In this document: piece after piece, positions 1,185-63,858 of the stretch
Position numbering within the stretch: the first letter of the stretch is position 1
Layout of the letters: each line of letters opens with the position of its first letter
DNA from: Heliopora coerulea
Taxonomy: Eukaryota > Cnidaria > Anthozoa > Scleralcyonacea > Helioporidae
Length of the DNA: 64,000 bases
Assembly: GCA_030142905.1 (NCBI GenBank)
Contig: JASJOG010000019.1
Location: 1,710,501-1,774,500 of the forward strand
Direction: 5' to 3'
The notes under the pieces: generated by a model
Told to the model about the DNA's origin: nothing
Database searches by the model: none
What the model saw: the letters and a program-made list of their open reading frames with translations, nothing else
Position numbers and translations under genes: made by a program

Positions 1185-1365
1185 TAAAATACACAACAAC
1201 GGTAACTCCAAAAATCGATAACATATTTAATTTATTCGACGTTTCGACTAGGCTTTAGTCATCTTCAGGAATGCTGCTGGCTAACAGGTGGGGTCTACTT
1301 ATATACAAATGACAATCACGTGAAAACTATTAATAGAAAATGATGAGTTCTCGGGATGCTTTATG
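1185..1365 (-). repeat. Left inverted terminal repeat of the Penelope-like element
   Basis: This segment is the reverse complement of 2,774-2,954 with few differences. The inversion reaches into the start of the ORF: the GAGTTCTCGGGATGCTTTA region at the left pairs with TAAAGCATCCCGAGAACTC at the right. The inverted copy therefore replaces the missing N-terminal coding sequence. Confidence 0.9.
1235..1268 (-). ncRNA. Hammerhead-like core in the left PLE repeat
   Basis: On the minus strand this reads CTGAAGA, one T, a GACTA/TAGTC hairpin, then GAAAC. This is close to the hammerhead ribozyme core (CUGANGA, helix II, GAAA), which is known to occur in Penelope-like elements. One extra nucleotide sits before helix II, and helices I and III are not obvious, so self-cleavage is unproven. 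Confidence 0.4.
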
Positions 1366-2954: not shown

Positions 2955-4419
2955 ACCAAAGGTTAACCCCTTAACTTTTGGTCAAATTTTTCCACCTAAA
3001 ATATTCAACGTAATTTCACCGAAAAAGAACTCCAATCACTGCAAAACTAGTTTCTATGCAATAAACTTTCATACTTTGACCTTATTTCGAAAGTTGAAAA
3101 TTGGTCGAAAAATCATCAAAAATCAAAGGTTAACCCCTTTACTTTTTGTTCAAATTTTTCCACCTGAAATATTCCACGTAATTTCCCCTAAAAACCACTC
3201 AAATCACTGCAAAACTACTTTCTATGCAATAAACTTTCATATTTTTACCTTATTTCGAAAGTTGGAAATTGGTCAAAAAATCGTCAAAAACCAAATGTTA
3301 ACCCCTTTACTTTTTGATCAAATTTTTCAACCTAAAATATTCAACGCAATTTCACAGAAAAACCACTGAAATCACTGCAAAACTAGTTTCTAAGCAATAA
3401 ACGTTCATATTTTCACCTTATTTCGAAAGTTGGAAATTGGTCGAAAAATCGTCAAAAACCAAAGGTTAACCCCTTTACTTTTTGGTGAAATTTTTCCACC
3501 TCAAATATTCAACGTAATTTCGCCTAAAAACCACTCAAATCACTGCAAAACTACTTTCCATGCAATAAACTTTCATATTCTTCACTTATTCCGAAAGTTG
3601 CAAATTGGTCGAAAAATCGTCAAAAACCAAAGGTTAACCCCTTTACTTTTTGTTCAAATTTTTCCACCTAAAATATTCAACGTAATTTCACCGAAAAAGA
3701 ACTCCAATCACTGCAAAACTAGTTTCTATGCAATAAACTTTCATACTTTGACCCTATTTCGAAAGTTGAAAATTGGTCGAAAAATCATCAAAAACCAAAG
3801 GTTAACCCCTTTACGTTTTGATCAAATTTTTCGACCTCAAATATTCAACGCAATTTCCCCTAAAAACCACTCAAATCACTGCAAAACTACTTTCTATGCA
3901 ATAAACTTTCATATTTTCACCTTATTTCGAAAGTTGGAAAGTCGTCGAAAAATCGTCGAAAACCAAAGGTTAACCCCTTTACTTTTTGGTCAAATTTTTC
4001 CACCTCAAATATTCCACGTAATTTCCCCTTAAAACCACTCAAATCACTGCAAAACTAGTTTCTAAGCAATAAACGTTCATATTTTCACCTTATTTCGAAA
4101 GTTGGAAATTGGTCGAAAAATCGTCAAAAACCAAAGGTTAACCCCTTTACTTTTTGGTGAAATTTTTCCACCTAAAATATTCAACGTAATTTCGCCGAAA
4201 AACCACTAAAATCACTGCAAAACTAGTTTCTATGTAGTAAACTTTCATATTTTGACCTTATTTCGAAAGTTTCAAATTGGTCGAAAAATCGTCAAAAACC
4301 AAAGGTTAACCCCTTTACTTTTTGGTGAAATTTTTCCACCTAAAATATTCAACGTAATTTCGCCGAAAAACCACTAAAATCACTGCAAAACTAGTTTCTA
4401 TATAATAAACTTTCATATT

Positions 4420-7111: not shown

Positions 7112-7261
7112 TTGACCTTATTTCGAAAGTTTCAAATTGGTCGAAAAATCGTCAAAAACCAAAGGTTAACCCCTTTACTTTTTGGTCAAATTTTTCCACC
7201 TAAAATATTCAACGTAATTTCACCGAAAAACCACTGAAATCACTGCAAAACTAGTTTCTAA

Positions 7262-8690
7262 GCAATAAACGTTCATACTTTGACCTTATTTCGAAAGTTG
7301 GAAATTGATCGAAAAATCGTCAAAAACCAAAGGTTAACCCCTTAACTTTTTGGTCCAATATTTCCCACCTAAAATATTCAACGTAATTTCACCGAAAAAG
7401 AACTCCAATCACTGCAAAACTAGTTTCTATGCAATAAACTTTCATATTTTCACCTTATTTCGAAAGTTGGAAAGTCGTCGAAAAATCGTCAAAACCCAAA
7501 GGGTAACCCCTTTACTTTTGGTACAATATTTCGACCACAAATATTCCACGTAATTTCCCCTAAAAACAACTGAAATCATTGCAAAACTAGTTTCTATGCA
7601 ATAAACTTTCATATTTTCACCTTATTTCGAAAGTTGGAAATTGGTCGAAAAATCGTCAAAAACCAAAGGTTAACCCCTTTACTTTTTGGTGAAATTTTTC
7701 CACCTCAAATATTCAACGTAATTTCGCCTAAAAACCACTCAAATCACTGCAAAACTACTTTCTATGCAATAAACTTTCATATTCTTCACTTATTCCGAAA
7801 GTTTCAAATTGGTCGAAAAATCGTCAAAAACCAAAGGTTAACCCCTTTACTTTTTAGTGAAATTTTTCCACCTAAAATATTCAACGTAATTTCACCGAAA
7901 AACCACTGAAATCACTGCAAAACTAGTTTCTAAGCAATAAACGTTCATACTTTGACCTTATTTCGAAAGTTGGAAATTGATCGAAAAATCGTCAAAAACC
8001 AAAGGTTAACCCCTTAACTTTTTGGTCCAATATTTCCCACCTAAAATATTCAACGTAATTTCACCGAAAAAGAACTCCAATCACTGCAAAACTAGTTTCT
8101 ATGCAATAAACTTTCATATTTTCACCTTATTTCGAAAGTTGGAAAGTCGTCGAAAAATCGTCAAAACCCAAAGGGTAACCCCTTTACTTTTGGTACAATA
8201 TTTCGACCACAAATATTCCCCGTAATTTCCCCTAAAAACAACTGAAATCATTGCAAAACTAGTTTCTATGCAATAAACTTTCATATTTTCACCTTATTTC
8301 GAAAGTTGGAAATTTGTCGAAAAATCGTCAAAAACCAAAGGTTAACCCCTTTACTTTTTGGTGAAATTTTTCCACCTCAAATATTCAACGTAATTTCGCC
8401 TAAAAACCACTCAAATCACTGCAAAACTACTTTCTATGCAATAAACTTTCATATTCTTCACTTATTCCGAAAGTTGCAAATTGGTCGAAAAATCGTCAAA
8501 AACCAAAGGTTAACCCCTTTACTTTTTGGTCAAATTTTTCCACCTAAAATATTCAACGTAATTTCACCGAAAAACCACTGAAATCACTGCAAAACTAGTT
8601 TCTAAGCAATAAACGTTCATATTTTCACCTTATTTCGAAAGTTGGAAATTGATCGAAAAATCGTCAAAAACCAAAGGTTAACCCCTTTAC
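7262..8690 (+). repeat. 672-bp (four-monomer) higher-order repeat
   Basis: Diagnostic words such as TTTTGGTCCAATATTTCCCA recur at 672-bp steps. This is a second higher-order register, beside the 1,346-bp one, in the same array. Confidence 0.85.
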
Positions 8691-11600
8691 TTTTTGGTCC
8701 AATATTTCCCACCTAAAATATTCAACATAATTTCACCGAAAAAGAACTCCAATCACTGCAAAACTAGTTTCTATGCAATAAACTTTCATACTTTGACCTT
8801 ATTTCGAAAGTTGAAAATTGGTCGAAAAATCGTCAAAAACCAAAGGTTAACCCCTTTACTTTTTGGTGAAATTTTTCCACCTCAAATATTCAACGTAATT
8901 TCACCGAAAAAGAACTCCAATCACTGCAAAACTAGTTTCTATGCAATAAACTTTCATACTTTGACCCTATTTCGAAAGTTGAAAATTGGTCGAAAAATCA
9001 TCAAAAACCAAAGGTTAACCCCTTTACGTTTTGATCAAATTTTTCGACCTCAAATATTCAACGCAATTTCCCCTAAAAACCACTCAAATCACTGCAAAAC
9101 TAGATTCTATGCAATAAACTTTCGTATTTTCACCTTATTTCGAAAGTTGGAAAGTCGTCGAAAAATCGTCGAAAACCAAAGGTTAACCACTTAACTTTTT
9201 GGGCAAATTTTTCCACCTAAAATATTCCACGTAATTTCCCCTTAAAACCACTCAAATCACTGCAAAACTAGTTTCTATACAATAAACTTTCATATTTTCA
9301 CCTTATTTCGAAAGTTGGAAATTGGTCGAAAAATCGTTAAAACCCAAAGGGTAACCCCTTTACTTTTGGTACAATATTTCGACCACAAATATTCCACGTA
9401 ATTTCCCCTAAAAACAACTGAAATCATTGCAAAACTAGTTTCTATGCAATAAACTTTCATATTTTCACCTTATTTCGAAAGTTGGAAATTGGTCGAAAAA
9501 TCGTCAAAAACCAAAGGTTAACCCCTTTACTTTTTGGTGAAATTTTTCCACCTCAAATATTCAACGTAATTTCGCCTAAAAACCACTCAAATCACTGCAA
9601 AACTACTTTCTATGCAATAAACTTTCATATTCTTCACTTATTCCGAAAGTTGCAAATTGGTCGAAAAATCGTCAAAAACCAAAGGTTAACCCCTTTACTT
9701 TTTGGTCAAATTTTTCCACCTAAAATATTCAACGTAATTTCACCGAAAAACCACTGAAATCACTGCAAAACTAGTTTCTAAGCAATAAACGTTCATACTT
9801 TGACCTTATTTCGAAAGTTGGAAATTGATCGAAAAATCGTCAAAAATCAAAGGTTAACCCCTTTACTTTTTGTTCAAATTTTTCCACCTAAAATATTCCA
9901 CGTAATTTCCCCTAAAAACCACTCAAATCACTGCAAAACTAGTTTCTATGCAATAAACTTTCATATTTTTACCTTATTTAAAAAGTTGGAAATTGGTCGA
10001 AAAATCGTCAAAAACCAAAGGTTAACCCCTTTACTTTTTGGTCAAATTTTTCCACCTCAAATATTCAACGTAATTTCCCCTTAAAACCACTCAAATCACT
10101 GCAAAACTTGTTTCTATGCAATAAACTTTCATATTTTTACCTTATTTCGAAAGTTGAAAATTGGTCGAAAAATCGTCGAAAACCAAAGGTTAACCCCTTT
10201 ACGTTTTGATCAAATTTTTCGACCTCAAATATTCAACGTAATTTCCCCTAAAAACCACTCAAATCACTTCAAAACTAGTTTCTATGCAATAAACTTTCAT
10301 ATTTTCACCTTATTTCGAAAGTTGGAAATTGGTCGAAAAATCGTCAAAAACCAAAGGTTAACCCCTTTACTTTTTGGTGAAATTTTTCCACCTAAAATAT
10401 TCAACGCAATTTCACAGAAAAACCACTGAAATCACTGCAAAACTAGTTTCTAAGCAATAAACGTTCATATTTTCACCTTATTTCGAAAGTTGGAAATTGG
10501 TCGAAAAATCGTCAAAAACCAAAGGTTAACCCCTTTACTTTTTGGTGAAATTTTTCCACCTCAAATATTCAACGTAATTTCCTCTTAAAACCACTCAAAT
10601 CACTGCAAAACTTGTTTCTATGCAAGAAACTTTCATATTTTTACCTTATTTCGAAAGTTGAAAATTGATCAAATTTTTCGACCTCAAATATTCAACGTAA
10701 TTTCCCCTAAAAACCACTCAAATCACTTCAAAACTAGTTTCTATGCAATAAACTTTCATATTTTCACCTTATTTCGAAAGTTGGAAATTCGTCGAAAAAT
10801 CGTCGAAAACCAAAGGTTAACCCCTTTACTTTTTGGTCAAATTTTTCCACCTCAAATATTCAACGTAATTTCACCGAAAAACAACTCAAATTACTGCAAA
10901 ACTAGTTTCTATGAAATAAACTTTCATATTTTCACCTTATTTAGAAAGTTGGAAATTGGTCGAAAAATCGTGAAAAACCAGTGGCTAACTCCTTTACTTT
11001 TTGGTCAAGTTTTCAACCTAAAATAGTGAAGGTAATTTCACCGAAAACCTACTCCAATCACTGCAAAAGTGACTTATATGGAATAACCTTTTATATTTAG
11101 ACCACCATTCGAAGGTTGAAAATTGGTCGAAAAATCGTCAAAAACCAAAGGTTAACTCCTTTAGTTTTTGGTGAAATTTTTCCACCTAAAATTGTCAAGA
11201 TAATTTCACCGAAAACCCATTTCAATCAGTGCAAAACTAACTTATATGCAATAAACTTTCATGTTTATACCTCAGTTCGAAAGTTTAAAATTGGTCGAAA
11301 AATCGTCAAAAAGCAAAGGTTCACCCCTTTACTTTTTGGTGAAATTTTTCCAATTAAAATAGTCAAGGTAATTTAACAAAAAAGCCACTCCAATCACTGC
11401 AAAACTAACTGATATTCAATAAACCTTCATATTAAGAACTCAATAGGAAAGTTTCAAATTGGTCGAAAAAGCATCAAAAACCAAAGGTCAACCCCTATAC
11501 TTTTTGGTGAAATTTTTCCATCTAAAATAGTGAACGTAAATTCACCTAAAAACTACTCCAATCACTGCAAAACTAACTTATATGGAATAAACTTTCATAT

Positions 11601-11930
11601 CTAGACCTCAATTGGAAAGTTTAAAATTGGTCGAAAAATCGTCAAAAACCAAAGATTAACCCCTTTACTTTTCGGTGAAATTTTTCCACCTAAAATAGTC
11701 AAGGTAATTTCACCGAAAAACCACTCCAATCACTGCAAAACTAACTTATATGGAAAAAACTTACATATTTAGACCTCAGTTCGAAAGTTTGAAATTGATC
11801 GAGAAATCGTCAAAAACCAAAGGTTAACAACTTTACTTTTTGGTGAAATTTTTCCACCTAAAATAGTCAAGGTAATTTCACCGAAAAACTTCTCCAATCA
11901 CTGGAAAAGTAACTTATATTCAATGAACAG

Positions 11931-21673: not shown

Positions 21674-22198
21674 CTAAACAGAAATGAGTAAATGTTCTCA
21701 ACACTAATTCAACTACTGCAAACCTTCTTGCAGGCAGCGGCAGCTTCCAGATTCGGCGTAACTGATTAATTTAACTGATGATTTCAAAATAGGAGTTCAA
21801 CACGTTGCTAAATGGAAAGCCACAAGGAAAAACCCATGCCAAACACCCTGCACTTCTTTTATCAGTGAAAGGACATGTACGGCATTGATTTTACCATGGA
21901 CAAGGTACTTTTTAGCACTGTACGTCCCTGGTTATTTGTGAAAACATTCAAAACTCTGACTTTACTGTATTCCAGGTATGGCTGGTAGTCCACTTGGGAC
22001 GGAGGCCTTATTACTGAAGACCAGGAATACAAAAAGCGGTAAGATACGTCTACCATATCATGTACGAAAAGTCCTCTGTACTTTTCCTGCCACTCAAAGT
22101 ACGGGATTGACTTTACCTAGATCAAAATCGTCCTCAGGGTAACATGAACATAACATTTCATGAACTGACCAACAATGATAAAGTCAACAAGAAAAGTT

Positions 22199-22271
22199 GA
22201 CTAGAGCGGGATTCAAACTAGCATCCTTGGGTTACCGGACCGCTGCTCTACCTGAATTGAGCTATCGAGTC
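22199..22271 (-). repeat. tRNA-Thr-like segment (unit 1)
   Basis: On the minus strand an acceptor GACTCGA pairs with TCTAGTC except at one position, the D-arm is GCTC/GAGC, and the presumed anticodon loop CCGGTAA would give GGT (Thr). The B box is altered (GTTTGAATCCC) and the anticodon stem pairs badly. It lies inside a repeated unit, so it is likely a tRNA-derived relic, not a working gene. Confidence 0.5.
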
Positions 22272-22401
22272 AACTGGGAATAGTATGGTCACTTTATCCA
22301 ATTTAAGCGCGCATCCTCACATATATTAAGCGTTAAGTTGTCGTGAGAATCTCTCGTGCACTTCAATGTTGTATCGAATAACAAAAGTTGTGGCACCTCA
22401 C

Positions 22402-22742
22402 CTTATTTCATTGTCTTGTACATGTTCCAAAAATTTGTTCACGACACATTTTCCACAACGCTTTTGTCAAATACTTCATTTCACCATCTTCACATTTTGA
22501 TTTTTCAGTGGCTATATATGTTATGAATTTCTTCTACGTCACATTTTCCACACGCCTGATGATCCAAATACTGTATTCCACCATCTTTCACAACATGTCT
22601 TCTTTGTAGTCATATAGGTTATGAATTTCTTCTGTCACGTTTTCCACAGGCTTTATGTCTCAAATACTTTGCTTCATCATCTTTCACATCTTGTGTTTTC
22701 TGTAGCCATATTTGTTAATGTAGTGATATGCCTCCCTTGTTC
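22402..22742 (-). pseudogene. Exon-like module 2
   Basis: Bounded on the minus strand by TTTCTGTTTAG and by GTGAGG. It holds about three degenerate tandem copies of a unit of roughly 80 bp, each with a TGTGAAAGATG and a TGTGGAAAATGTG word. Single-base indels break the frame that is open in module 3, so this copy is probably dead. Confidence 0.45.
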
Positions 22743-23539: not shown

Positions 23540-24061
23540 CTAAACAGAAATGAGTAAATGCTCTCAAGACTAATTCAACAATTGCAAACCTTCTTGCAGG
23601 TAGCGGAAGTATCCAGATTCGACGCAACTAATTAATTTAATCGATGATTTCAAAATAGGAATTCAACACGTTGCTAAATGCAGACCCACAAGGCAAAACC
23701 CTTGCTGAACTCCTTGCACTTATTTTATCCCTCAAAGGACACGTACGGCATTGATTTTACCAAAAGGTACCTTTTAGTACCGTACGTCTCTAATTATTTT
23801 CTGAAAACATTCAAAATGCTGACTTTACAGTATTCAAGGTATGCCTGCTAGTCCACTTGGGACAGAAGCCTTATTACTGAAGACCAGGAATACGAAAAGC
23901 GGTAAGAAACGTCTACCATGTCATGTACGAAAAGTCCTCTGTACTTTTTCTGCCGCTCAAAGTACGGGATTCACTTCACCTAGTTCTGAATCATCCTCAA
24001 AGTAACATGAACATAAGCTTTCATGAATTGACGTACAATGATAAAGTCAACAAGAAAAGTT

Positions 24062-24133
24062 GACTAGAGCGGGATTCGAACTCGCATCTTCGGGTTACCA
24101 GACCGCCGCTCTACCTGAATTGAGCTATTGGTC
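24062..24133 (-). repeat. tRNA-Thr-like segment (unit 3)
   Basis: Carries a perfect B box (GTTCGAATCCCGC on the minus strand) and a recognisable D-arm, but the acceptor pairing is incomplete. Part of the same repeated unit as 22,199-22,271. Confidence 0.5.
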
Positions 24134-24263
24134 AATTGGGAACAGTATGCTCGTTTTATCCAATTTAAGTGCACATCCTCACAGATATCGAGCGTTAAGT
24201 TGTCGTGAGAATCTCTCGTGCACTTCAATGTTGTATCGAATATCAAAAGTTGTCGCATCTCAC

Positions 24264-24609
24264 CTTTATTTCATTGTCGTACACATGTTCCAAAAATTTG
24301 TTCACGTCACATTTTCCACAACGCTTTTGTCAAATACTTCATTTCACCATCTTCACATTTTGATTTTTCTGTAGCTATATATGTTATGAATTGTTTCTAT
24401 GTCACATTTTCCTCAGCTCTGATGTTTCAAGTACTGTATTCCACCATCTTTCACAACTTGTGTTTTTTGTAGCCATATATGTTATAAATTTCTTCCATGT
24501 CACATTTTCCATAGGCCTTACATGTCTCAAATACGTTATTTCACCATCTTTCACATCTTGAGTTTTCTGTAGCCGTATATGTTGATTTGGTGATATGCCT
24601 TCCTTGTTC
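24264..24609 (-). pseudogene. Exon-like module 4
   Basis: Same borders as the other modules (CTGTTTAG acceptor, GTGAGA donor) with three internal copies of the roughly 80-bp unit. Extra bases relative to module 3 cause frameshifts and stops. Closely similar to module 2. Confidence 0.45.
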
Positions 24610-26093: not shown

Positions 26094-26371
26094 TCTGTAC
26101 GTCTCTAATTATTTGTGAAACATTAAAAATTCTGACTACACAGTATTCAAGGTACGGTTGCTAGTCCACTCGGGACTGAAGCCTTATTACTGAAGACCAG
26201 GAATACAAAGAGCGGTAAGTAACGTCTACCACGTCATGTACGAAAAATCCCCTGTACTTTTTCTGCCACTCAAAGTACGGGATTGACTTCACCTAGTTCA
26301 GAATCACCCTCAAGGTAACATGAACATAAGCTTTCATGAATTGACCTACAATAAGGTCAACTAGGAACGTT

Positions 26372-26442
26372 GACTAGAGCGGGATTCGAACTCGCATCCC
26401 CGAGTTACCGGACCACTGCTCTACCAGTTGAGCTATCGAGGG
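26372..26442 (-). repeat. tRNA-Thr-like segment (unit 4)
   Basis: The best preserved A and B boxes of the series (TAGCTCAACTGGTAGAGC and GTTCGAATCCCGC on the minus strand). The acceptor ends CCCTCGA and TCTAGTC pair poorly, so function as a tRNA is doubtful. Confidence 0.5.
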
Positions 26443-26549
26443 AACTGCAAACAGTATGCTTGTTTTATCCATGGATATCGAGCGTTAAGTTGTCGCGAGA
26501 ATCTCTCGTGCACTTAAATGTATCGAATATAAAAGCTGTCGCATCTCAC

Positions 26550-26798
26550 CTTTATTTCATTGTCTTTTACGTGTTTCAAAAATTTGTTCACGTCACATTT
26601 TCCACAAGGCTTTTGTCTCAAATACTTTATTTCACCATCTTTCACATTCTGATTTTTCTGTAGCCATACATGTTATGAATTTCTTCTATGTCACATTTTC
26701 TACACGCCTGATGTCTCAAATACTTTATTTCACCATCTTCCACATCTTGTATTTTCTGTAGCCATATTTGTTAATGTAGTGATACGCCTCCCTTGTTC
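26550..26798 (-). pseudogene. Exon-like module 5
   Basis: Same acceptor and donor contexts as modules 2-4, with two internal copies of the roughly 80-bp unit. The frame is disturbed after the first GGCTACAGAAAA word, as in modules 2 and 4. Confidence 0.45.
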
Positions 26799-39259: not shown

Positions 39260-39724
39260 TTATTTAATTTCAAACCCTTCCATGATCAACTTTGTTTTTA
39301 ACCAGTTGATAGAGAATGAATCTCCCGTGAACTCATATTCACAAGGTATTTCTAAACCATAGCCACCGCCTCTATTCACACGCTTGCCCTTGATCACTGC
39401 TTTACCGGAGTTTGATGCTCGTTTCAAAAATTTGGTTAGCCACAACGCCATGAGTTTAGGAACGTGTCCAATAATTTCAAGATCCCTCATCATTCCGTTA
39501 GGATGCTGGTGGGGTTTTAAAACAAGCTTTTCACGCAAGCTCTCACGTCGAGTGGGACGAACATTTGGTTGTTTCTTCCGAACAACTGCGAAAGCATTTG
39601 AGTCTTCCTTGTTGTTTGGTTCTCGCTTAAGTGAATATTCTTCACCAACGTTTGGCAACCAGATGTCCATGTGATCATGGTAGCCTCTGATAAAAGAAAC
39701 CACTGCAATTATTTCCGTTGACAT
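39260..39724 (-). CDS. HIRAN-like domain protein, 154 residues
   Basis: A complete single-exon frame from ATG to TAA. The pattern GYHDHMDIWLPNVGEEYSL, then REPNNKEDSNAFAVV and IGHVPKLMALWLTKFL, fits a HIRAN-like fold: a small glycine/GE block, the EPNN..D..A..V signature and a GHVP block. In HLTF and Rad5 the HIRAN domain binds 3' ends of single-stranded DNA. Stand-alone proteins of this kind may be transposon-associated, which is inference. There is an insertion of about 20 residues (QPNVRPTRRESLREKL) between the EPNN and GHVP blocks. Nothing nearby shows an operon-like partner; the Tigger relic starts 230 bp away on the other strand. Confidence 0.6.
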   Translation of the reverse strand: MSTEIIAVVSFIRGYHDHMDIWLPNVGEEYSLKREPNNKEDSNAFAVVRKKQPNVRPTRRESLREKLVLKPHQHPNGMMRDLEIIGHVPKLMALWLTKFLKRASNSGKAVIKGKRVNRGGGYGLEIPCEYEFTGDSFSINWLKTKLIMEGFEIK

Positions 39725-39953: not shown

Positions 39954-40948
39954 ATGTCTACATTGCCAGGCATATCGTCTTGTCAAACGTGCGGGAAAGA
40001 AACAAATTATCGATGTTTGATTTGCGAGAAAGCAATATGCAACAGATAAACTAACTGCTCCGTGGTTGCGCCAGAGGAGACGCAAGGTTGGAAGGCGGGC
40101 CCAAAGGTATCTTTTTGCGCTTCATGTAAAACAGAGGCGACGGCTGCAGAATTTGTTAGTAAGAGTAACGCATCTTCTAGCGTCACGGAACGAGAGGACC
40201 AAAATACAAGTAAGAGTGTAAAGAAATCGACGACTACCAGTCAAACAGTACGCCGTGATCACTCTAATATGTTGGGTCAAAAGCGCAAATGTCTTGACTT
40301 TTCAACAAAGATTGCAGTCATCAATTTCGCGAAAGATCACCCAAGTTTTGGGAGCAGTAAAATAGCAGAAGAATTTAGGACTGGAAAAGCACAGATCCAA
40401 GCAATTATAAGAAATAAGGAATCTATATTTGTTTTGTACGAAAGTAATGTCGGTCAAAGTCAGCGAAAGAGAAGTCGCACTGGGAAATATTCAAACGTCA
40501 ATATAGCACTTTGGGACTGGTATACCATGTGTAGAAACTCGAACATATCAGTTTCAGGGACAATGCTACAAGAACTGAAGAAGCAACAATTATCGCTGAA
40601 AAATTAGGCATAACGGGCTTCGCTGCATCAAATGGCTGGCTTGAGTCTTTCAAAACATAACATAACATCGGCAACATGAAAGTCTCAGGAGAAGCAGGTA
40701 TGCGTCAAGGCACTGTTGAAAGTTGGAGTGAGAGGGCGAGGGAAATCACCCTAGGGTGGAAGCCAGAATATGTGTGGAAGCCAGAAAATGTGTGGAATAT
40801 GGACGAGACGGGAAGCTTTTGGTGTGCACTTCCTGAAAGAGCTTTAGTGAAAAAGGGAAGCGTTGCAGTGGTGGAAAAAAAAAAAGCAAAACAGCGAAAT
40901 ACATGGGTTTTCTTTGTTAATGCTGCAGGCGAAATGTTAATGCTATAG
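39954..40948 (+). pseudogene. Tigger/pogo-type transposase, broken and truncated
   Basis: From ATG at 39,954 the frame has a CxxC...CxxC segment (CQTCGKETNYRCLICEKAIC), then an in-frame TAA at 40,047. It continues past 40,062 to the N-terminal helix-turn-helix (KRKCLDFSTKIAVINFAKDH) and a second DNA-binding region (LWDWYTMCRNSNISVSGTML). A frameshift near 40,575 moves the continuation (TIIAEKLGITGFAASNGWLE) to another frame, and a further stop follows. The last open part contains VWNMDETGSFWCALPERAL, with the first catalytic Asp of the DDE domain. The remaining catalytic residues are missing. A 15-bp direct repeat (TGTGGAAGCCAGAA near 40,772 and 40,787) is also seen. Confidence 0.85.
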
Positions 40949-45014: not shown

Positions 45015-45227
45015 TCAGTGCCTTAAATATGTGGACACTATTTCTACAAGTTTGCTTTCGCAAAGTTTAATTGCGTTGTTGAATTTATTTAGCAGTTGTT
45101 TTGGTAGAGGATCATTTGGCTTGACTCTAATTTTCAGTGACTCCGGAGTTACTCCTTTTCTTAATTTTCGGAGGCAACGGACATGGTGTTTCCTTACCCC
45201 AAGCCAATATTGAATTCCTTTGGTCAT
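45015..45227 (-). CDS. Conserved terminal exon, paralogue 2
   Basis: After TTTATATTCAG on the minus strand, an open frame starts MTKGIQYWLGVRKHHVRCL, continues RKLRKGVTPESLKIRVKP and DPLPKQLLNKFNNAIKLCE, and stops after YLRH. The paralogue at 53,995-54,249 is about half identical in protein, with the frame, the HH-x-RCLRKLRKG block and the LPKQL block kept. That pattern is expected for a coding exon under selection, not for decayed repeat. It is strongly basic; family not recognised. Upstream exons for this copy were not found, so it may be a spare terminal exon or a pseudogene fragment. Confidence 0.55.
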   Translation of the reverse strand: MTKGIQYWLGVRKHHVRCLRKLRKGVTPESLKIRVKPNDPLPKQLLNKFNNAIKLCESKLVEIVSTYLRH

Positions 45228-45752: not shown

Positions 45753-46462
45753 TAAATAGTCAAGGTAATTTCACCAAAAAACCACTCCAATCACTGCAAA
45801 TCTACCTTATATACAATAAACTTTCACATTTAGACCTCAATTCGAAAGCTTGAAATTGGTCAAAAAATCATCAAAAACCAAATGTTAACCCATTTACTTT
45901 TTGGTGAAATTTTTCCACCTAAAATAGTCAAGGTAATTTCACTGAAAACCCACTCCAATCACTGCAAATCTACCTTATATGCAATACACTTTCACATTTA
46001 GACCTCAACTCAAAAGTTTGAAATTGGTCAAAAAATCTTCAAAAACCAAACTTTTAACCCCTTTACTTTTTGGTGAAATTTTTCCACCTAAAATAGTCAA
46101 GGTAATTTAACTGAAAAACCTTTCCAATCACTGCAAATGTACCTTAAATGAAGTGAACTTTTATATATTTACCTTAATTCGAAAGTTTGAAATTGGTCAA
46201 AGAATCATCAAAAACCAAAGGTTAACCCCTTTATTTTTTGGTGAAATTTTTCCACCTAAAATAGTCAAGGTAAGTTCACCTAAAAATCACTCCAATCACT
46301 GCAAAACTAACTTATATACAATAAACCTTCATATTGAGACCTCAATTCTAAAGTTTTAAATTGCTCGAAAACTCATCAAAAACCAAAGGTTAACCCCTTT
46401 ACTTTTTGGTGAAATTTTTCTACCTAAAATAGTCAAGGTAATTTCACTGTAAAACTAGTCCA
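45753..46462 (+). repeat. Detached block of the 168-bp satellite
   Basis: About four divergent monomers with AAATAGTCAAGGTAATTTCA near 45,753, 45,921, 46,089, 46,258 and 46,426. They match the edge subtype of the main array (10.98-11.93 kb), not its core. Confidence 0.9.
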
Positions 46463-53994: not shown

Positions 53995-54249
53995 TTAATT
54001 TTGAAAATTTTTAATATTAAAATTTGCTATTTTCATTTGATCTTCATGGAACTCTTCTAGTATTTTTATAAACTGTTTTTCACAGGTCATGATGGCGTCT
54101 TGCCATTTATTTTTTAGTTGTTTTGGTAACGCCACTTTGGGCGTTACCTTTACTTTCAACCCTTTTGGCGTTGTTCCTTTCCGCAGCTTCCGGAGGCACC
54201 GTCTGTGATGCCTCACCGTTTCTCGCCAAAATTTTGTTTCTTTGGTCAT
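53995..54249 (-). CDS. Conserved terminal exon, paralogue 1
   Basis: TTTATATTCAG precedes the first codon on the minus strand. The frame encodes MTKETKFWRETVRHHRRCL, RKLRKGTTPKGLKVKVTP and VALPKQLKNKWQDAIMTCEK, and ends at a stop after 84 residues counted from this Met. It is basic and Lys/Arg rich. The paralogue at 45,015-45,227 keeps frame and motifs with about half the residues identical. It begins in phase 0, which matches the donor of the basic exon at 54,914-54,975, so it may be the last exon of the mini-exon gene. That link is inference. Confidence 0.55.
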   Translation of the reverse strand: MTKETKFWRETVRHHRRCLRKLRKGTTPKGLKVKVTPKVALPKQLKNKWQDAIMTCEKQFIKILEEFHEDQMKIANFNIKNFQN

Positions 54250-54631
54250 CTGAATATAAATCAATAAAGATGGAGTTTGCTCATAGGGAGTAACTGATGG
54301 ACATTAATGTAGGGATGGGGCAAAGGGAGGACAGAACTGTCGTCAATTGTGGAGCAATCTTACTTGTGTAAGACCAGGCTTTCTGATCATTGCGACTTTA
54401 ACGACCAGGTTGATGTGCATCAAGAACGGTGCTAAAACTGGTCGTACTTTCCGTAAGAATTAAGATAAACGATAAGTGGAAAAATGCCCGTTTTTGCGAT
54501 TCTTTACAAGTGAACCTTTTGTCAATAAAGACAAGTCAGTAATTGGATAAATGATTAAATTTGACTAATTATTCATTTTATCAAAAGAAACAATTATTGA
54601 CAGCTGTGGACTGGAGACCCAGTGAGGCGTA

Positions 54632-55479: not shown

Positions 55480-55545
55480 TGTTAATACTGGCTGGAACTG
55501 CATTTGGTTCCCTAGATGGCCGTGCGGATGATGTACTTGGCATAT
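55480..55545 (-). CDS. Mini-exon 9 (66 bp)
   Basis: Borders TTTCTAG and GTATGT. Encodes MPSTSSARPS and REPNAVPASIN. The most divergent repeat, one codon shorter than the others. Confidence 0.65.
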
Positions 55546-58500
55546 CTAGAAATTCATAATTGTAATGTCCATGTTAATGGCACAGACATTTATACTGGCT
55601 ACAAAGGTTTTCCTGAAATATAAATATACATGTTTTAACTTTTTATTTATAGGTTTAGAAACGTTTAATATTTATTCTGGATATATGAACTGATTATCTC
55701 GATGTAATCGATGGTTTGTTGAGCTTGGATACTTAATTGATGTTAATATCACAAAGTCACTTTATTATGCACGTAAAATGTTCTGATAGGTGGTACGTAT
55801 AAGGTCAAATTTTTATTGATATGTTTAAGTTACGATATTGTTCTAGGCAAATAAATTTGACTTTATTAGTGTACTGCATTAATGTTATACGTGAGTGACA
55901 TAGGCGAGTATTTTAATTCACGTACTGGCATCTCGTGCTGGAGCTGCACTTGATCGTGCTCTAGAAGCCCCAGCTGATGATGTAGTTGGCATATCTAGAA
56001 ATTATGAGTAACATAAATGTTAATGGTACACACATTTATACTGGCTACAAAGGTTTTTCTGACATGTAAATATACATGCTCAACTTATGACCTACATGAT
56101 TGTTCATTAAAACATACTGATTAGTAATTTTAACTAAAAACTACTGAGGAATTTATTTGCCCCCGACTAAATGGATGGAATACAGGGACGAAGCCCAACT
56201 ACGTTAGTTTGTTTCGGACAAATCCGTGAATTGAGCTTTTAACACGAAATTTAGTTTTCGATTAGAGCGCTTCTAAGGATATCGTGTCAGGAAATTATTT
56301 TCATGTTACAATTCCGAAGTAGTATTTCCAGCATTTCGAATTCCCTGTTACTTCATAAATAAGCAAAAAGACTTCAACTGACATGTGCTTAATCTATATT
56401 CCGTTATTTTTAAGAAAAATGATTATGCGCGATTAAAAAAATACAAGAGAAGACGACTAAAAAACGTTACTTTTACTCAGCTACGTTATCCGCGCCCGAT
56501 CTACGTGACTGGATGTATGACTAGCAACAGAACAAAAACGTTACAACTAAATAATATTTTTAAATATAACAGTATTTTAATTCACTTACCGTTACTATTG
56601 GCTGGAGCTGCTCTGGGTGGCACGTTCGACGCCCCAGCAGAAGATGTGGTTGGCATATCTAGAAATTCAGAGTAACATAAATGTTAGTGGTACACACATT
56701 TATACTGGCTACAAAGGTTTTTCTGAAATGTAAATATGCATGTTTTAGCTTCTTATTTATATGTTTAGAAACGTTTAATATTTATTCTGGACATGTGAAC
56801 GGATTATCTCGATGTAATCATCTCCTATTAAATGGAATGAAATCGTAAGTGTGATGAATGGTTTATTAAACTTGGATACCCAATTGACATTTTAAGAAGT
56901 TTATGCGAGAAAGTAAAGTGATATTTTTATTACATAAATTTTTTAATATCACAACGTCACTTTATTATGCACGTAAAATGTTCTGATAGGTGGTACGTAT
57001 AAGGTCAAATTTTTATTGATATGTTTAAGTTACGATATATTGTTCAAGGGGAGTAAATTTGACTTTATTAGTGTACTGCATTAATGTTATACGTGAGCGA
57101 GATAGGCGAGTATTTTAATTCACGTACTGTCATTTCGTGCCGGAGCTGCACTTGATCGTGCTCTAGACGCCCCAGCTGATGATGTAGTTGGAATACCTAG
57201 AAATTCAGAGTAACATAAATGTTAATGGTATACACATTTATACTGGCTACAAAGGTTTTTCTGAAATGTAAATATGCATGTTCTAGCTTCTTATTTATGT
57301 TTAAAAACGTTCAATATTTATTCTGGACATGTAAACTGATTATCTCGATGTCATCATCTCCTATTAAATGGAAAGAGATCGTAAGTGTGATGAACGGTTT
57401 ATTGAGCTTGGATACAAAACTTGACAATTAAAAAGTTTATGCGAGAATGTAACGTGATATTTTTCACATAAATGTTTTAAAATCACAAAGTCACTTTATT
57501 ATGCACGTAAAATGTTCTGATAGGTGGTACGTATAAGGTCAAATTTTTATTGATATGTTTATGTTAAGATATATTGTTCTAGGCAAATAAATTTGACTTT
57601 ATTAGTGTACTGCATTAATGTTATACGTGAGTGAGATAGGCCAGTATTTTAATTCACGTACTGTTATTTAGTGCTGGAGCTGCACTTGATCGTGCTCTAG
57701 ACGCCCCAGCAGAAGATGTGGTTGACATATCTAGAAATTCAGAGTAACATAAATGTTAATGGTACACACATTTATACTGGCTACAAAGGTTTTTCTGACA
57801 TGTAAATATACATGCTCAACTTATGACCTACATGATTGTTCATTAAAACATACTGATTAGTAATTTTAACTAAAAACTACTGAGGGATTTATTTGCCCCC
57901 GACTAAATGGATGGAATACAGGGACGAAGCCCAACTACGTTTGTTTGTTTTGGACAAATCCATAAATTGAACTTTTAACACGAAATTTAGTTTTCGATTA
58001 GAGCGCTTCTAAGGATATCGTGTCAGGAAATTATTTTCATGTTACAATTCCGAAGTAGTATTTCCAGCATTTCGAATTCCCTGTTACTTCATAAATAAGC
58101 AAAAAGACTTCAACTGACATGTGCTTAATCTATATTCCGTTATTTTTAAGAAAAATGATTATGCGCGATTGAAAAAAAGTACAGGAGAAGACGACTAAAA
58201 AACGTTACTTTTACTCAGCTACGTTATCCGCGCCCGATCTACGTGACTGGATGTATGACTAGCAACAGAACAAAAACGTTACAACTAAATAATATTTTTA
58301 AATATAACAGTATTTTAATTCACTTACCGTTACTATTGGCTGGAGCTGCTCTGGGTGGCACGTTCGACGCCCAAGCAGAAGATGTGGTTGGCATATCTAG
58401 AAATTCAGAGTAACATAAATGTTAGTGGTACACACATTTATACTGGCTACAAAGGTTTTTCTGAAATGTAAATATGCATGTTTTAGCTTCTTATTTATAT

Positions 58501-61500
58501 GTTTAGAAACGTTTAATATTTATTCTGGACATGTGAACGGATTATCTCGATGTAATCATCTCCTATTAAATGGAATGAAATCGTAAGTGTGATGAATGGT
58601 TTATTAAACTTGGATACCCAATTGACATTTTAAGAAGTTTATGCGAGAAAGTAAAGTGATATTTTTATTACATAAATTTTTTAATATCACAAAGTCACTT
58701 TATTATGCACGTAAAATGTTCTGATAGGTGGTACGTATAAGGTCAAATTTTTATTGATATGTTTAAGTTACGATATATTGTTCAAGGGGAGTAAATTTGA
58801 CTTTATTAGTGTACTGCATTAATGTTATACGTGAGCGAGATAGGCGAGTATTTTAATTCACGTACTGGCATTTCGTGTCGGAGCTGCGCTTGATCGTGCT
58901 CTAGACGCCCCAGCAGAAGATGTGGTTGGCATATCTAGAAATTCAAAGTAACATAAATGTTAATGGTACACACATTTATACTGGCTACAAAGGTTTTTCT
59001 GAAATGTAAATATGCATGTTTTAGCTTCTTATTTATATGTTTAGAAACGTTCAATATTTATTCTGGACATGTAAACTGATTATCTCGATGTCATCATCTC
59101 CTATTAAATGGAAAGAGATCGTTAGTGTGATGAATGGTTTATTGAGCTTGGATACAAAACTTGTCAATTGAAAAGTTGGTGCGAGAAAGTAACGTGACAT
59201 TTTTCACATAAATTTTTTAATATCACAAAGTCACTTTATTATGCACGTAAAATGTTCTGATAGGTGGTACGTATAAGGTCAAATTTTTATTGATATGTTT
59301 AAGTTACGATATATTGTTCTAGTCAAATAAACTTGACTTTATTAGTGTACTGCATTAATGTTATACGCGAGATAGGTGAGTATTTTAATTCACGTACTGT
59401 CATTTCGTGTCGGAGCTGTACTTGCTCTCGCCCTAGACGCCCTAGCAGAAGATGTGGTTGGTATATCTAGAAATTCAGAGTAACATAAATGTTAATGGTA
59501 CACACATTTATACTGGCTACAAAGGTTTTTCTGAAATGTAAATATGCATGTTTTAGCTTCTTATGTATATGTTTAGAAACGTTTAATATTTATTCTGGAC
59601 ATGTAAACTGATTATCTCGATGTCATCATCTCCTATTAAATGGAAAGAGATCGTAAGTGTGATGAATGGTTTATTGAGCTTGGATACAAAACTTGTCAAT
59701 TGAGAAGTTGGTGCGAGAAGGTAACGTGACATTTTTCACATAAATGTTTTAAAATCACAAAGTCACTTTATTATGCACGTAAAATGTTCTGATAGGTGGT
59801 ACGTATAAGGTCAAATTTTTATTGATATGTTTAAGTTACGATATATTGTTCAAGGGGAGTAAATTTGACTTTATTAGCGTACTGCATTAATGTTATACGT
59901 GAGCGAGATAGGTGAGTATTTTAATTCACGTACTGTCATTCCGTGCTGGAGCTGCAGTTGATCTCGCCCGAGACGCCCCAGCAGAAGATGTGGTTGGCAT
60001 ATCTAGAAATTCAGAGTAACATAAATGTTAATGGTACACACATTTATACTGGCTACAAAGGTTTTTCTGAAATGTAAATATGCATGTCTTAGCCTCTTAT
60101 TTATATGTTTAGAAACGTTCAATATGTATTCTGGAGATATGAACTGATCGTTTTGATGAAATCATCTCCAATTAATGGAAAAATATGATAAATGCAATTG
60201 ATGGGTTTTTTGAGCTTAGATATTCAATTGACGTTTAAAAAAAATTTACGACAAAGTAACGTGATATCTTTATTACATAAATTTTTAATATCACCTCTTG
60301 GAATCGCATACAGTTTAGTGAGTCTGAACAACCCTCCTGGCATATTTGAAATATCTAAATGTGATCCACCTTTATATCCTAATTTTGTGCATATTATACT
60401 GGATTTGTACTCGTGAAAACCTGGGTGCGAAAGCCAGGTAGTGGGTGTGAAAGCCTGTGTAGGAAGGTCGCTACCCATTCGAAAACTTGGATCGCCTAAG
60501 ATTTTTGTTGAAAAATCTGACATGAACTATCAACTATCAAGAACTTAAAAATTCACAATATATTAAAGATGTTGTCTACGTACCAGAAACGTGGTGAATT
60601 AAGCTGGATATTCCAGCCAATTGTTTTTGAACCTCTCTCCTCAATCCTAAATAAAAATAAAGGCAGAACAGAAAGCATTGAACATCCCGCGTGTAATAAC
60701 AGGATTAATGGTAATTATTTTCGAGGTAACCTATATTTTACATATTTTTCGAATGTCTGCAGTACCTGTTCTTTACTAGGGGAACGACAATTTGTTTCAT
60801 GCATAGCATATTTACTGGTGGTGCACAACACAACAGTGCAACATTGTAATTAGTTGTTTTTGATCTGATTAACCAGTTATAGAATTGCTAAATACCAATG
60901 ATCATACTCCAAACAAAATACGCAAAAGGTTTAGAAATTATCTTTAGTTGAAGACATGTCTTTCCTCCAGATTCTCCCATATATCTTATACTGCTGAAAA
61001 GGTTGACAGGTCTTGAGTGGGAAAACTGATACTCAAACTATATCGCACATATATAATCATATACGATAGTGAGAACTTGGCCTGTTTGGAAACGTATGTC
61101 ATAATATATAACGAGTGAATTAACTCTGTTATCCCACTGTGAAAATCAAGATTTCAAACTAATAAATGTCTAGTTTTATCGAAAAAGTTACATTACGGAT
61201 ACTGACGTCGAAGTATCTTGGACAAGTGGCACTCGGAGACTGTATACATGATCCCGGCTGGCCGGGTCAACCTGGTCAATGCCGAGTTGCAAATCCTCTC
61301 ATATTAACACTCAAACCCGGCAAGTGGGAACAAATCTTGTTGAGAACGCGTGCGTGCTTCGATAATTACATGACAGGGCAATGAATAACATGTGAGCTAG
61401 TGTTGCAGACGACATTGTAGAACTCGAGCCTCGTGGCCAAAAGAAGAAATATAGAACGGAAAAGACTAAAGAGTGTGTTTTGTGTGAAGCGACGAAATGC

Positions 61501-63858
61501 AGTGTGTTGATCGAGTTTCTTGTTTACTTATAAGTCACGTGCAAGTTCAGGGACATTGACTTTGACGTTGACAAAACCGTGCACTATGAATGGTTATGAA
61601 AAAAAAAAAATGGCGGCAAGATGTTTCGCTGACAGGACAGATATCAGACTTAAGACGATAGCCTCATTCCTTTGACCCAAAACATTCTTAAGGCCGCGAA
61701 TATGGTGTACACTCCATAAAGAAGACAAATGCATGGCAATTGCTTCATATTGTTCAACAGAACTGATTTCTCGCTCAATTTTCCTGCGCAATGCGAAGTT
61801 TATGTCGGCAGAAGAAATTTTCGGTCCACAGAAACACATCATCCCGGCATGCTGAGTTTCCCTGTTAGGCGAGACAACCTGGACAGCCTGGATCATGTAA
61901 ACAAGTCCTGAATGTCCACCACAAATATTCATTCACCTACCACGTGATTTTCTTTTGATGTGCAGCGAACTGCCTTCGGGATTCGGTAATTCTGTGATCA
62001 GAAAGTAGGAGTGAATTACAGTTAGAGCGGTACTAATGTCAAAGGTTGTCATGGCTGGAAGTAGTTATGTATTCTAGTTAAATATATTATGCGAAGCAAG
62101 CAAATTACGAGGTAAGGCAAACAGCAACATCCGACGACAAAAACGTTGTTAGAAATGACAAAGAAAACCAATCAAAAACCAGTACGTTCTTTATCAACGT
62201 CGTCTGGTTGTTCCGTACTGGAAAGTAATTGCCTTTGTTTCCTGTTGCACAGACCTCGCTCCTTCGTCATGGGTAGCACGAGAGGGGGGCAGAGGGGCTC
62301 TAGTCACCCGGTCGGTGAACCTTAGCCCCCACTGTCGGAGAAAAATTAACAATTCGCCAGGGGATTTTCAATGATGATAACAGATTTATATGTTGTACAT
62401 ATTACCAGTTCTTGCTATTGATTTTGCCAAGAAAGATTATAAACTCTTCTGTTTATGTCAAATTTAAAAGTAAACTGTTTCCAGTCAGTTGCTGCGAAAA
62501 ATAACGTGATGTTTACTACCTTTAAATAAGGAAATTATAAATAGGGCGTGGTTCTGGCCTCTCTGGTTTAGTCCTCCATTGCGAAACGTTAGCCCTCGTG
62601 TCAGGAAATTTCTGCCGCCACATCTCGCTCGATCTGCACGAAAACCTGATCAGACAAATCTGACTTTCCTGTACGAACCTCGAGCGCTCTAACAGTGGCC
62701 GGTTCCCTTTATTACGTCAGCTGAATACATCTAGCAGAACACTTTGCGGTTTTTTCATTTTCATGCAAACATTTAATTCCCAAAACGGATGGAAAGACAA
62801 TTTCTCTGATTGACATTACAAACAAGATTTCGAAAGGCATTCTGGTAGTTGTATAAGTATTCAACAGATGTGTAAGGATCATTCAGTCCCAGTCGGAAAC
62901 CAAAATTTGAAATTCATTTGTGAGTCAGTTCATTCATCAGCAAAACCTTTTCAAGCTTTTCCTGTCCAAAACGTCTCCCCTTGATGAGTAAAATCTTCTG
63001 GCACTAGCCCGAGTAAAATTAAAAATTCGGCTACGAACGGCTGGGGGTTAGGGAGAATCATTATTACTGTAAGATGTCTGATACCTCAGATCAGTCAGAT
63101 GTTCATCTGCATGTAATATGATCACTCTGTTTCAACCTGAGGAGAATTGAAGTTACATCTAGTGTTGAGTTAAGCCTGCTGGATGGCCAGAGTAAATGTT
63201 TCGTGGAAGGTCTTTGACTGAAGATGGAGTAAACTAGATTTGACTAACAGGGATCTCCACAAATGATACGTATTTGAAGATTTTAACGGAACTTTTACGA
63301 AAAGCTTAATGCAGACAATCCGCATGATTAAAAACCATCACGATAAACAAACCAAGTGCAGAAGTACCGCTATGCATCATTTTAAATGCCTATACCACTA
63401 CTTCATCCTTTTTACTTCTATTGAACAAACATAATAGGTTGAAACAAAAGTTTAAAACTGAATAAACATTGACAAAGGGATGAAATTGAGGCTGTGCATT
63501 TATAATGATACATAAAAATATTTATACAACCGGCCATAATGCTTGCAAACATTCCAAGGGATCTACATCAGTTGTCGATGGTAGATCAAGGGGGCAATAA
63601 AACGAGGGTTTTAAAAAATCACTTGCCTTTAAGATCTTAATTTTTTCTCGGAGATTTGGTGTAGCGTTAGGGAGGACTGCACATGCAATTTCCTAGTGAA
63701 ATTTTATTTGAATATCCCCTTCTCCTTAATGGTATAGCTTTGTATCTCTGTAATGACTGTTTAGTAAATTTAGTCATGTATATTACACAGTAACCAAATT
63801 TTCATGGACGCTCACTTACCATCATCATGTTTTCTTTTTCTGCTTTTTTCAGCTTCCT
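55480..63858 (-). CDS. Mini-exon array gene (12 supported exons, incomplete at 5')
   Basis: A minus-strand gene. The 5'-most exons seen are 63,820-63,858 (39 bp), 61,941-61,991 (51 bp) and 60,584-60,646 (63 bp), followed by nine mini-exons of 66 or 69 bp. All twelve have AG and GT borders, lengths divisible by three, and phase-1 introns on both sides, so the whole series joins in one open frame. The product would carry an NLS-like KSRKRKHDD, then LPNPEGSSLHIKRKSR, a possibly helical LRREVQKQLAGISSLIHHVS, then tandem repeats of the type MPTTSSAGAS plus an Arg/Ala/Pro-rich tail. Synonymous differences (TCT/TCA, ACC/ACT) among repeats suggest selection on protein. The Ser/Thr/Ala/Pro repeat looks like a disordered linker. 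Function unknown; no homologue recognised. Confidence 0.68.
55926..55994 (-). CDS. Mini-exon 8 (69 bp)
   Basis: Borders TTTCTAG and GTACGT. Encodes MPTTSSAGASRARSSAAP and ARDA. Confidence 0.7.
56590..56658 (-). CDS. Mini-exon 7 (69 bp, second type)
   Basis: Borders TTTCTAG and GTAAGT. Encodes MPTTSSAGAS then NVPPRAAPANSN. Shares this second half with mini-exon 4. Confidence 0.7.
57128..57196 (-). CDS. Mini-exon 6 (69 bp)
   Basis: Borders TTTCTAG and GTACGT. Encodes IPTTSSAGASRARSSAAP and ARND; the first codon is ATT, not ATG, so Met is not a start here. Confidence 0.7.
57662..57730 (-). CDS. Mini-exon 5 (69 bp)
   Basis: Borders TTTCTAG and GTACGT. Encodes MSTTSSAGASRARSSAAP and ALNN. Confidence 0.7.
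58328..58396 (-). CDS. Mini-exon 4 (69 bp, second type)
   Basis: Borders TTTCTAG and GTAAGT. Identical in type to mini-exon 7 except for a Gly-to-Trp change (SSAWAS). Lies 1,738 bp from mini-exon 7, in step with the larger duplication. Confidence 0.7.
58866..58934 (-). CDS. Mini-exon 3 (69 bp)
   Basis: Borders TTTCTAG and GTACGT. Encodes MPTTSSAGASRARSSAAP and TRNA. Confidence 0.7.
59398..59466 (-). CDS. Mini-exon 2 (69 bp)
   Basis: Borders TTTCTAG and GTACGT. Encodes IPTTSSARASRARASTAP and TRND. Confidence 0.7.
59934..60002 (-). CDS. Mini-exon 1 (69 bp)
   Basis: Borders TTTCTAG and GTACGT. Encodes MPTTSSAGASRARSTAAP and ARND. First of the array in transcription order. Confidence 0.7.
60584..60646 (-). 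CDS. Upstream exon of the array gene (63 bp)
   Basis: A long pyrimidine-rich tract ending TTTTTATTTAG, then a 63-bp phase-1 exon encoding LRREVQKQLAGISSLIHHVS, then GTACGT. Its acceptor is the best of the set. Possibly amphipathic helix. Confidence 0.6.
61941..61991 (-). CDS. Upstream exon of the array gene (51 bp)
   Basis: Acceptor TTTCTGATCACAG, donor GTAGGTGA. Phase 1 at both ends. Encodes LPNPEGSSLHIKRKSR. The donor is weaker than the others. Confidence 0.5.
62000..63800. other. Presumed intron of the array gene
   Basis: No further phase-1 exon was found here. Near 62,965-63,020 lies a degenerate member of the dispersed TTGACGANTAAAATCNTC repeat. Confidence 0.4.
63820..63858 (-). CDS. 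Upstream exon of the array gene (39 bp)
   Basis: Acceptor TTTGTTTGTATGATTGCAG, donor GTAAGTGA, both good. Phase 1 at both ends. Encodes EAEKSRKRKHDD, a nuclear-localisation-like basic cluster. Phase-1 entry requires at least one more exon beyond the window's right edge. Confidence 0.6.

Follow-up and report, generated by a model that had tools for sequence, protein, structure and literature searches.

Nine tandem phase-1 mini-exons, probably coding, in a small gene family of Heliopora coerulea

The question raised by this locus is whether a row of near-copies of one short open segment can be the exons of a protein gene and, if so, how its repeats could be gained and lost. The window, by which we mean the whole stretch of 64,000 nucleotides from Heliopora coerulea that was analysed (C101:1710501-1774500), carries nine similar units at 55480-60002 of the minus strand, each with one short predicted exon (Table 1). 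The observation itself is real: the initial annotation, made from the letters alone, had described nine units with common borders, lengths of 66 or 69 bp and one phase, and all nine were found where it had placed them, on the minus strand and with these properties. The reading that we prefer, and consider likely with some reserve, is that the nine are phase-1 mini-exons spliced into a taxon-restricted animal gene, with repeats gained and lost via near-identical introns and exon pieces shuffled among cassettes. The array is thus probably coding, part of a taxon-restricted gene family and a variation on a known architecture.

The mini-exons and the predicted gene around them

The predicted exon is 69 bp long in eight of the nine units and 66 bp in the remaining one (e9). 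The acceptor side reads TTTCTAG in all nine, the donors are GTACGT (six), GTAAGT (two) and GTATGT (one), and the phase is 2+3n+1 (1-1, symmetric) in 9/9 predicted mini-exons, which bears out the claim of symmetric phase-1 exons. The sole length change among the nine is one of 3 bp, and the introns have indels of other lengths. The spacing from unit to unit is 449-666 bp, and the eight introns between the mini-exons measure 380-597 bp, with the five type-A introns at 463-469 bp. Six exons are of type A (with a RARSSAAPARND-like tail), two of type B (e4 and e7, NVPPRAAPANSN) and one of type C (e9); only the difference between types A and B alters the tail strongly. The predicted frame is open in 9/9 mini-exons and the other two frames in 8/9 and 0/9. 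Since the nine copies are related and the chance that six randomly mutated copies all stay open is 0.42, open frames are by themselves weak evidence of coding.

The repeat region is of low complexity (A 24%, S 21%, P 11%, R 11%, T 10%, N 9%; Leu 0.5%). With Ala, Ser, Pro, Arg, Thr and Asn so abundant, the array is likely to code for a flexible linker whose length can vary. An expandable disordered linker had been proposed by the initial annotation; the low complexity is compatible with it, and the disorder is a prediction from composition. Each exon would add 23 residues (22 for e9), rich in Ala/Ser/Pro/Arg/Thr, to a probably disordered linker that would join a basic N-terminal part to the conserved C-terminal domain with its two predicted helices, and the number of repeats would set the length of the linker. 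Because every exon is phase 1-1, the frame would survive both a crossover in an intron and the skipping of an exon.

Table 1. Positions of the predicted features in the window
Feature	Position	Strand	Length (bp)	Class	Remarks
Candidate upstream exon 1	63820..63858	-	39	phase 1-1	EEAEKSRKRKHDD, basic cluster; AG before, GTAAGT after; predicted
Candidate upstream exon 2	61941..61991	-	51	phase 1-1	ELPNPEGSSLHIKRKSRG; predicted
Candidate upstream exon 3	60584..60646	-	63	phase 1-1	GLRREVQKQLAGISSLIHHVSD; predicted
Mini-exon e1	59934..60002	-	69	type A	predicted; groups with outside copy p72160 (support 90/88)
Mini-exon e2	59398..59466	-	69	type A	predicted; groups with outside copy p6247 (support 96/97)
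Mini-exon e3	58866..58934	-	69	type A	predicted
Mini-exon e4	58328..58396	-	69	type B	predicted; 5' part A-like, 3' part and downstream intron different
Mini-exon e5	57662..57730	-	69	type A	predicted
Mini-exon e6	57128..57196	-	69	type A	predicted
Mini-exon e7	56590..56658	-	69	type B	predicted; 1 difference from e4
Mini-exon e8	55926..55994	-	69	type A	predicted
Mini-exon e9	55480..55545	-	66	type C	predicted; acceptor lost in all three outside C copies
Linking exon	54364..54431	-	68	phase 1 in, phase 0 out	PFLMHINLVVKVAMIRKPGLTQ; predicted
C-terminal exon with stop	53995..54249	-			MTKETKFW...NFQN; conserved domain of ~84 residues, predicted helical
Second, diverged copy of the C-terminal domain exon	45030..45227	-			

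Three upstream exons in the same phase had also been claimed, and the predicted segments of 39, 51 and 63 bp are indeed all 2+3n+1 with good borders. Splice borders and phase are the support for these three exons and for the linking exon; second copies of the three were searched for in the own genome and not found. Searches of the 10 kb upstream did not find the first exon or the 5' end of the gene: four open stretches there have no Pfam match near the cut-off, for five 5' candidates the cluster contains no convincing second copy (self matches aside, the best E is about 0.03), and the best match elsewhere of one candidate has E=0.019.

On the other side of the array, the acceptor ttcag at 54249 is followed by 84 codons and a stop. 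The mini-exons exit in phase 1 and this C-terminal exon needs phase 0, a change that the predicted linking exon of 68 bp makes. In 7/7 copies checked, the linking exon has AG before it, GT after it and an open frame; its donor is GTAAGA in six of them and GTCGAA in the seventh. A phase-1 reading of the C-terminal exon (DQRNKIL...) was dropped, having stops in most copies, and replaced by frame 0 with the predicted linking exon. The predicted gene order is accordingly 5' part, basic exons, nine repeats, linking exon and helical domain.

The C-terminal domain is matched 32 times in the genome, with 31 of the matches on the contig of the window (C101) and two in the window itself. In a large protein set it was found in 10 proteins, the window's own included. 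One of these, P0002, and a copy in the own genome are identical in the 80 residues that were compared, and the remaining protein matches may therefore derive from the same or a near species. Compared with two outside copies, the window exon has dS of 0.62 and 0.61, dN of 0.10 and 0.11 and dN/dS of 0.15 and 0.18 in frame 0, and the other frames carry stops. Judged by these substitutions, the window exon is coding and under purifying selection relative to the two copies. Among ten C-terminal pairs, dN/dS is 0.13-0.30 in six, above 1 in two (on 1 and 2 synonymous changes) and without a ratio in two that have no synonymous change. AlphaFold2 with 20 sequences of the domain predicts two helices, with a mean pLDDT of 90.4 in the best of five models (59.5-90.4), and a fold search with this two-helix model gave no match at E<=0.001.

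Related cassettes on one contig

The own genome (429.8 Mb, 769 contigs), in which one exon of a GFP-like protein at another place is most similar to red fluorescent proteins of the DsRed type, known from anthozoans, and thus makes a cnidarian likely, was searched with a 601-base unit as query. All 19 matches lie on C101 and within cassettes, in a search that skips very common words, and the idea that the introns are copies of a dispersed mobile element that had entered an older repeat exon was rejected on this result. There are five cassettes on C101, namely that of the window and four more between 1613 and 1681 kb, with 9 (window), 3, 2, 2 and 3 mini-exon copies, broken ones included. The outside cassettes with 3, 2 and 2 copies are on the same strand as the window array and the other 3 copies are on the opposite strand. 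In 5/5 cassettes, copies of the mini-exons lie alongside copies of the C-terminal domain exon, some of them broken. The suggestion that copy number changes by germline duplication agrees with these counts, and with long reads from several individuals the locus would allow a direct measure of the turnover of repeat number in a protein linker.

Divergence of exons and introns

Variable positions number 23/69 in the six type-A exons and 16/192 in their flanks (4/68 upstream, 12/124 downstream; Fisher p=4.8e-6). The mean p-distance of these exons, 0.142, is about threefold that of five whole type-A introns, 0.049 (the 380-bp e8-e9 intron left out). Mutable CpG as the cause was rejected, as the excess persists when CpG positions are dropped (15/55 variable in exons vs 11/180 in flanks, p=6e-5). 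Exons that evolve faster than introns are unexpected of a simple coding gene. The initial annotation had itself named exon segments evolving as fast as their introns as an outcome that would speak against its gene, and on this point the result went against it, the exons being the faster. The case for coding therefore rests on the type of substitution, the retention of splice sites and the linked C-terminal exon. We do not take the exon excess as refuting coding, because there is a lean towards synonymous changes, because exon lineages are common to other cassettes, and because the four-gamete conflicts described below fit shuffling.

Of the changes among the six type-A exons, 12 are synonymous and 11 non-synonymous, with 31% synonymous expected (dN/dS about 0.42, p=0.03), and addition of the four intact outside copies gives 13 and 13 (p=0.03). 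The excess of third-position changes (11/24) is not significant alone (p=0.14). The idea that positive selection alone accounts for the excess in exons was rejected, since dN/dS is below 1 for the mini-exons and for 6/10 C-terminal pairs; of the other pairs two exceed 1 on few changes and two have no ratio. The C-terminal exon shows an excess of its own when compared with the preceding 110 bp of intron: the exon distance is the larger in 27/28 pairs from eight copies, 1.5- to 3.6-fold where a ratio is possible, and this also holds between copies with stops. With dS of about 0.62 in this exon vs about 0.09 in the adjoining intron, the excess reaches synonymous sites.

A higher-order duplication is visible in the introns that follow e3 and e6, which differ at 1/469 bases; exons e3 and e6 themselves differ at 8/69. 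Within that same duplicate e4 and e7 differ at 1/69. The pair of type-B introns differs at 10/595. This young e3-e4/e6-e7 duplicate shows that unequal exchange has been recent. Inside the 69-bp exon, the six copies give four-gamete conflicts at 14 site pairs among 9 informative sites, and ten copies give 22 pairs among 13 sites, repeated mutation at one site being another possible source in both cases. In the simplest account, unequal exchange through introns that are nearly identical would add and remove repeats, and short-tract gene conversion would likely shuffle exon pieces among cassettes. Exchange and conversion together may keep the window introns uniform, while short pieces from an older stock of exon variants circulate.

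Trees were built from the six type-A exons of the window and the four intact outside exons, with types B and C and the six broken outside copies left out. In the exon tree e1 and e2 group with outside copies and not with their array neighbours (supports in Table 1), and a window-only clade is rejected (AU p=0.006). The tree of the flanks agrees on e2, does not reject e1 with p72160 (p=0.20) and also rejects the window-only clade (p=0.02), with unsettled bootstrap values. Because the flank tree does not reject the pairing of e1 and does reject the window-only clade, the exon and intron topologies are not significantly different, and it is only in branch length that the trees show a difference between the two histories. 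The end branches in the window are 0.015-0.059 for exons vs 0-0.017 for flanks, and outside it 0-0.020 for exons vs 0.018-0.093 for flanks. The conserved C-terminal exon downstream, the paralogous cassettes and the mosaic exons are all additions to the initial annotation.

Purifying selection on the flanking introns, for splicing signals or another function, with exons that drift freely, would make shuffling and homogenisation unnecessary. Such constraint is in line with the finding that only ~65-68 bp before the first mini-exon still match in three outside cassettes (92.6-94.1%), with type-A and type-B introns that are alike in the first ~20 bp and different beyond, and with the longer end branches of the flanks in the partly broken outside cassettes. 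However, the low divergence spans the whole length of the 463-469 bp introns, one 469-bp pair having a single difference, which constraint is unlikely to achieve over an AT-rich intron. The four-gamete conflicts within the exons point moreover to exchange, and the C-terminal exon has the same excess with stop-bearing copies included, so that we regard intron constraint as unlikely, if still the most serious of the alternatives.

Somewhat more doubtful is an untranslated or dying tandem repeat, in which the "exons" would be parts of a duplicated block that happen to be open. The single origin of all nine means that their open frames count for little, as the chance of openness given above illustrates, and the exon divergence above that of the introns fits such a block. 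Outside the window, 4/10 mini-exon copies have retained the 69 bp with both AG and GT and are intact, and 6/10 are broken; the three outside C-type copies have all lost the acceptor and have a length shift in common. With 6/10 broken, much of the family is decaying, and the window array could be decaying too, only more slowly. Against a dying repeat stand the intact state of 9/9 copies in the window, the lean towards synonymous changes, the length fixed modulo 3, and the adjacent C-terminal exon under purifying selection with its in-frame predicted linking exon open in every copy checked.

We give very little credence to a renewal of exons only, in which the mini-exons and the C-terminal exon are overwritten apart from the introns, perhaps by conversion templated by spliced RNA; if true, a germline array would keep making exon mosaics while its spacers remained alike and open to unequal exchange. 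Its specific form, spliced transcripts copied back as cDNA that overwrites the exons alone in shifted register and leaves introns untouched, appears most improbable: exon mosaics, the excess in two exon kinds of one family and the divergence in 15-bp bins (15 window pairs pooled), 0.10-0.19 in five exon bins vs 0-0.07 in 7/8 adjoining intron bins, speak for it, but divergence is also high (0.111) in one intron bin, the one at 15-30 bp past the exon, and the mosaics are also explained by ordinary short-tract DNA conversion. That bin means that the splice sites do not strictly delimit the excess of divergence.

Comparison with known exon arrays

The preferred reading, a spliced array with exchange through its introns, has a close counterpart in the 90-bp-exon LRR genes of Tetrahymena. 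These are described, as far as the published account goes, as tandem exons of equal length in phase 2, with introns of about 257 bp in the youngest T. thermophila group, an exon number that varies strongly between paralogs, and exons often nearer to those of another paralog than to their array neighbours. The turnover is there ascribed to unequal crossing over, possibly with retrotransposition, and the account covers thousands of genes with RNA-seq support. The predicted exons of our array are similar in having one length (69 bp in 8/9), one phase (9/9), a variable copy number and exons scrambled between paralogs; exon number differs between paralogs as in the Tetrahymena architecture, with 4/10 outside copies intact. 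The array is unlike the Tetrahymena genes, so far as these are described, in its 66/69 bp exons, phase 1, Ala/Ser/Pro/Arg/Thr repeat, single small cluster and exons more divergent than introns. It is not an LRR gene: no Pfam family, leucine-rich repeats included, was found up to E=1 for a 303-residue joined product (with its tail in the since-dropped frame). A likely animal array with phase 1 and a repeat of the disordered type would show that the tandem equal-exon architecture arose more than once.

Small symmetric exons are known from other genes. In schistosome micro-exon genes the coding sequence is mostly in very small symmetrical exons, with alternative splicing into similar proteins (PMC4350168). 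In the part of the gene seen here, whose 5' end was not located, small symmetric predicted exons make up most of the coding sequence. The schistosome genes code for secreted parasite proteins with documented variants, and tandem copies of one exon are not among the features described in the portion of that source at hand (PMC4350168). Aphid bicycle genes have many small internal exons in one phase (phase 2) and fast-evolving, lineage-restricted proteins, and they differ, in the description available, in being putative gall effectors, many overexpressed in salivary glands, which were found by a gene-structure classifier and not as copies of one exon (PMC9168663).

The agreement of the introns can be compared with spider silk genes. 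Flag and Argiope MaSp2 are described as having repeat exons split by near-identical introns (94.3-99.7% in MaSp2), with types alternating in some genes, and recombination confined by introns is the proposed driver of homogenisation (PMC9779670, PMC1885213). Flag repeats have about 440 residues, and the repeat units within a MaSp2 gene are essentially identical in these accounts (PMC9779670, PMC1885213). The type-A introns here are similarly near-identical (mean p-distance 0.049), whereas the exons are tiny, not homogenised (0.142) and in excess of the introns in divergence, unlike those of spidroins as far as they are described.

The initial annotation knew of no described family with this repeat, and none was found by Pfam, by a protein search with five of the nine repeats or by a literature search. 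The 164-residue product of that protein search (upstream exons and five of the nine repeats) had no relative at E<=0.1 among 7996 scored candidates, a negative that is weak because the database probably has few spliced animal proteins. Among viral_contigs, none of 12 pattern matches was confirmed, and an intron word had no exact match. The literature search, cnidarian work included, gave no direct precedent for the array and none for the letters of the repeat motif.

A parallel to the divergence pattern is ASSET in snake three-finger toxins, where, according to the parts of the reports available, introns are highly similar, exon segments differ and look switched, and the mechanism is called unexplained (PMC2474615, PMC2711939). 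Here too the introns are conserved while exon segments appear to be exchanged, in view of the variable positions (23/69 vs 16/192) and the 14 four-gamete pairs, for which repeated mutation is possible. In contrast to ASSET as described there, the exons are those of one gene and not of separate genes, and about half of the changes are synonymous instead of radical changes of amino acid. An exon divergence above that of introns makes the locus a small and tractable case of how exons stay diverse while introns even out.

Duplication of C-terminal domain exons

Tandem duplication also affects the exons for the conserved C-terminal domain in the outside cassettes, the further groups of mini-exon and domain copies on the window's contig, C101 (own-genome stretches L014/L015, C101:1647.3-1651.7 kb, and L017). 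The copies in the joined stretch (Table) are near-identical and spaced by exactly 1382 bp, and a second array of these exons in the outside cassettes has two units with a spacing of 1390 bp. Off C101, the sole copy of the domain found is on another contig of the same genome (G000:C768:606068-606307), and it has one stop codon inside.

Features of the window and of L010, upstream of the array gene, and domain exon starts
Feature	Location	Strand	Evidence or remark
C-terminal domain exon starts	joined stretch 39559, 40941, 42323, 43705		
tRNA-like match with tandem ~98-bp units	window 22198-22717, 24061-24583, 26371-26773	- (tRNA-like match)	Rfam
Large 168-bp satellite arrays	window 3-1159, 2955-11928, 45754-46462		
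Reverse transcriptase ORF, 484 residues	window 1356-2810		Pfam RVT_1, E=7e-11
ORF matching the HIRAN domain	window 39260-39724	-	24.4 bits, slightly below curated cut-off 24.7
Two adjacent ORFs	window 40062-40948	+	first: weak Tc5/CENP-B-type DNA-binding matches, under cut-offs
1033-codon open stretch and short downstream ORF	L010 260-5011	-	upstream neighbour, array gene's strand
THAP9/P-element-like transposase, C-terminal part	L010 9023-9781	+	TNP-like_RNaseH_C, E=1.5e-18

Repeats and apparent mobile-element remnants

A short tandem array of a ~98-bp unit, in 2-3 copies, follows each of the three tRNA-like matches at a distance of up to about 200 bp, and the composites look as if one SINE-like composite element had spread. 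Two of the three tRNA-like matches are barely above the Rfam cut-off. The first two satellite arrays flank the reverse transcriptase ORF, for which RVT_1 is the only family listed in the Pfam scan and the C-terminal part of which we take to resemble a GIY-YIG (Penelope-like) element. The adjacent ORF pair looks like the remnants of a transposase gene.

Upstream neighbour

The short ORF downstream of the 1033-codon stretch shows a weak, sub-cut-off match (E=0.004) to Pfam K1377 (KIAA1377/CEP126), at the final 20 residues of that family.
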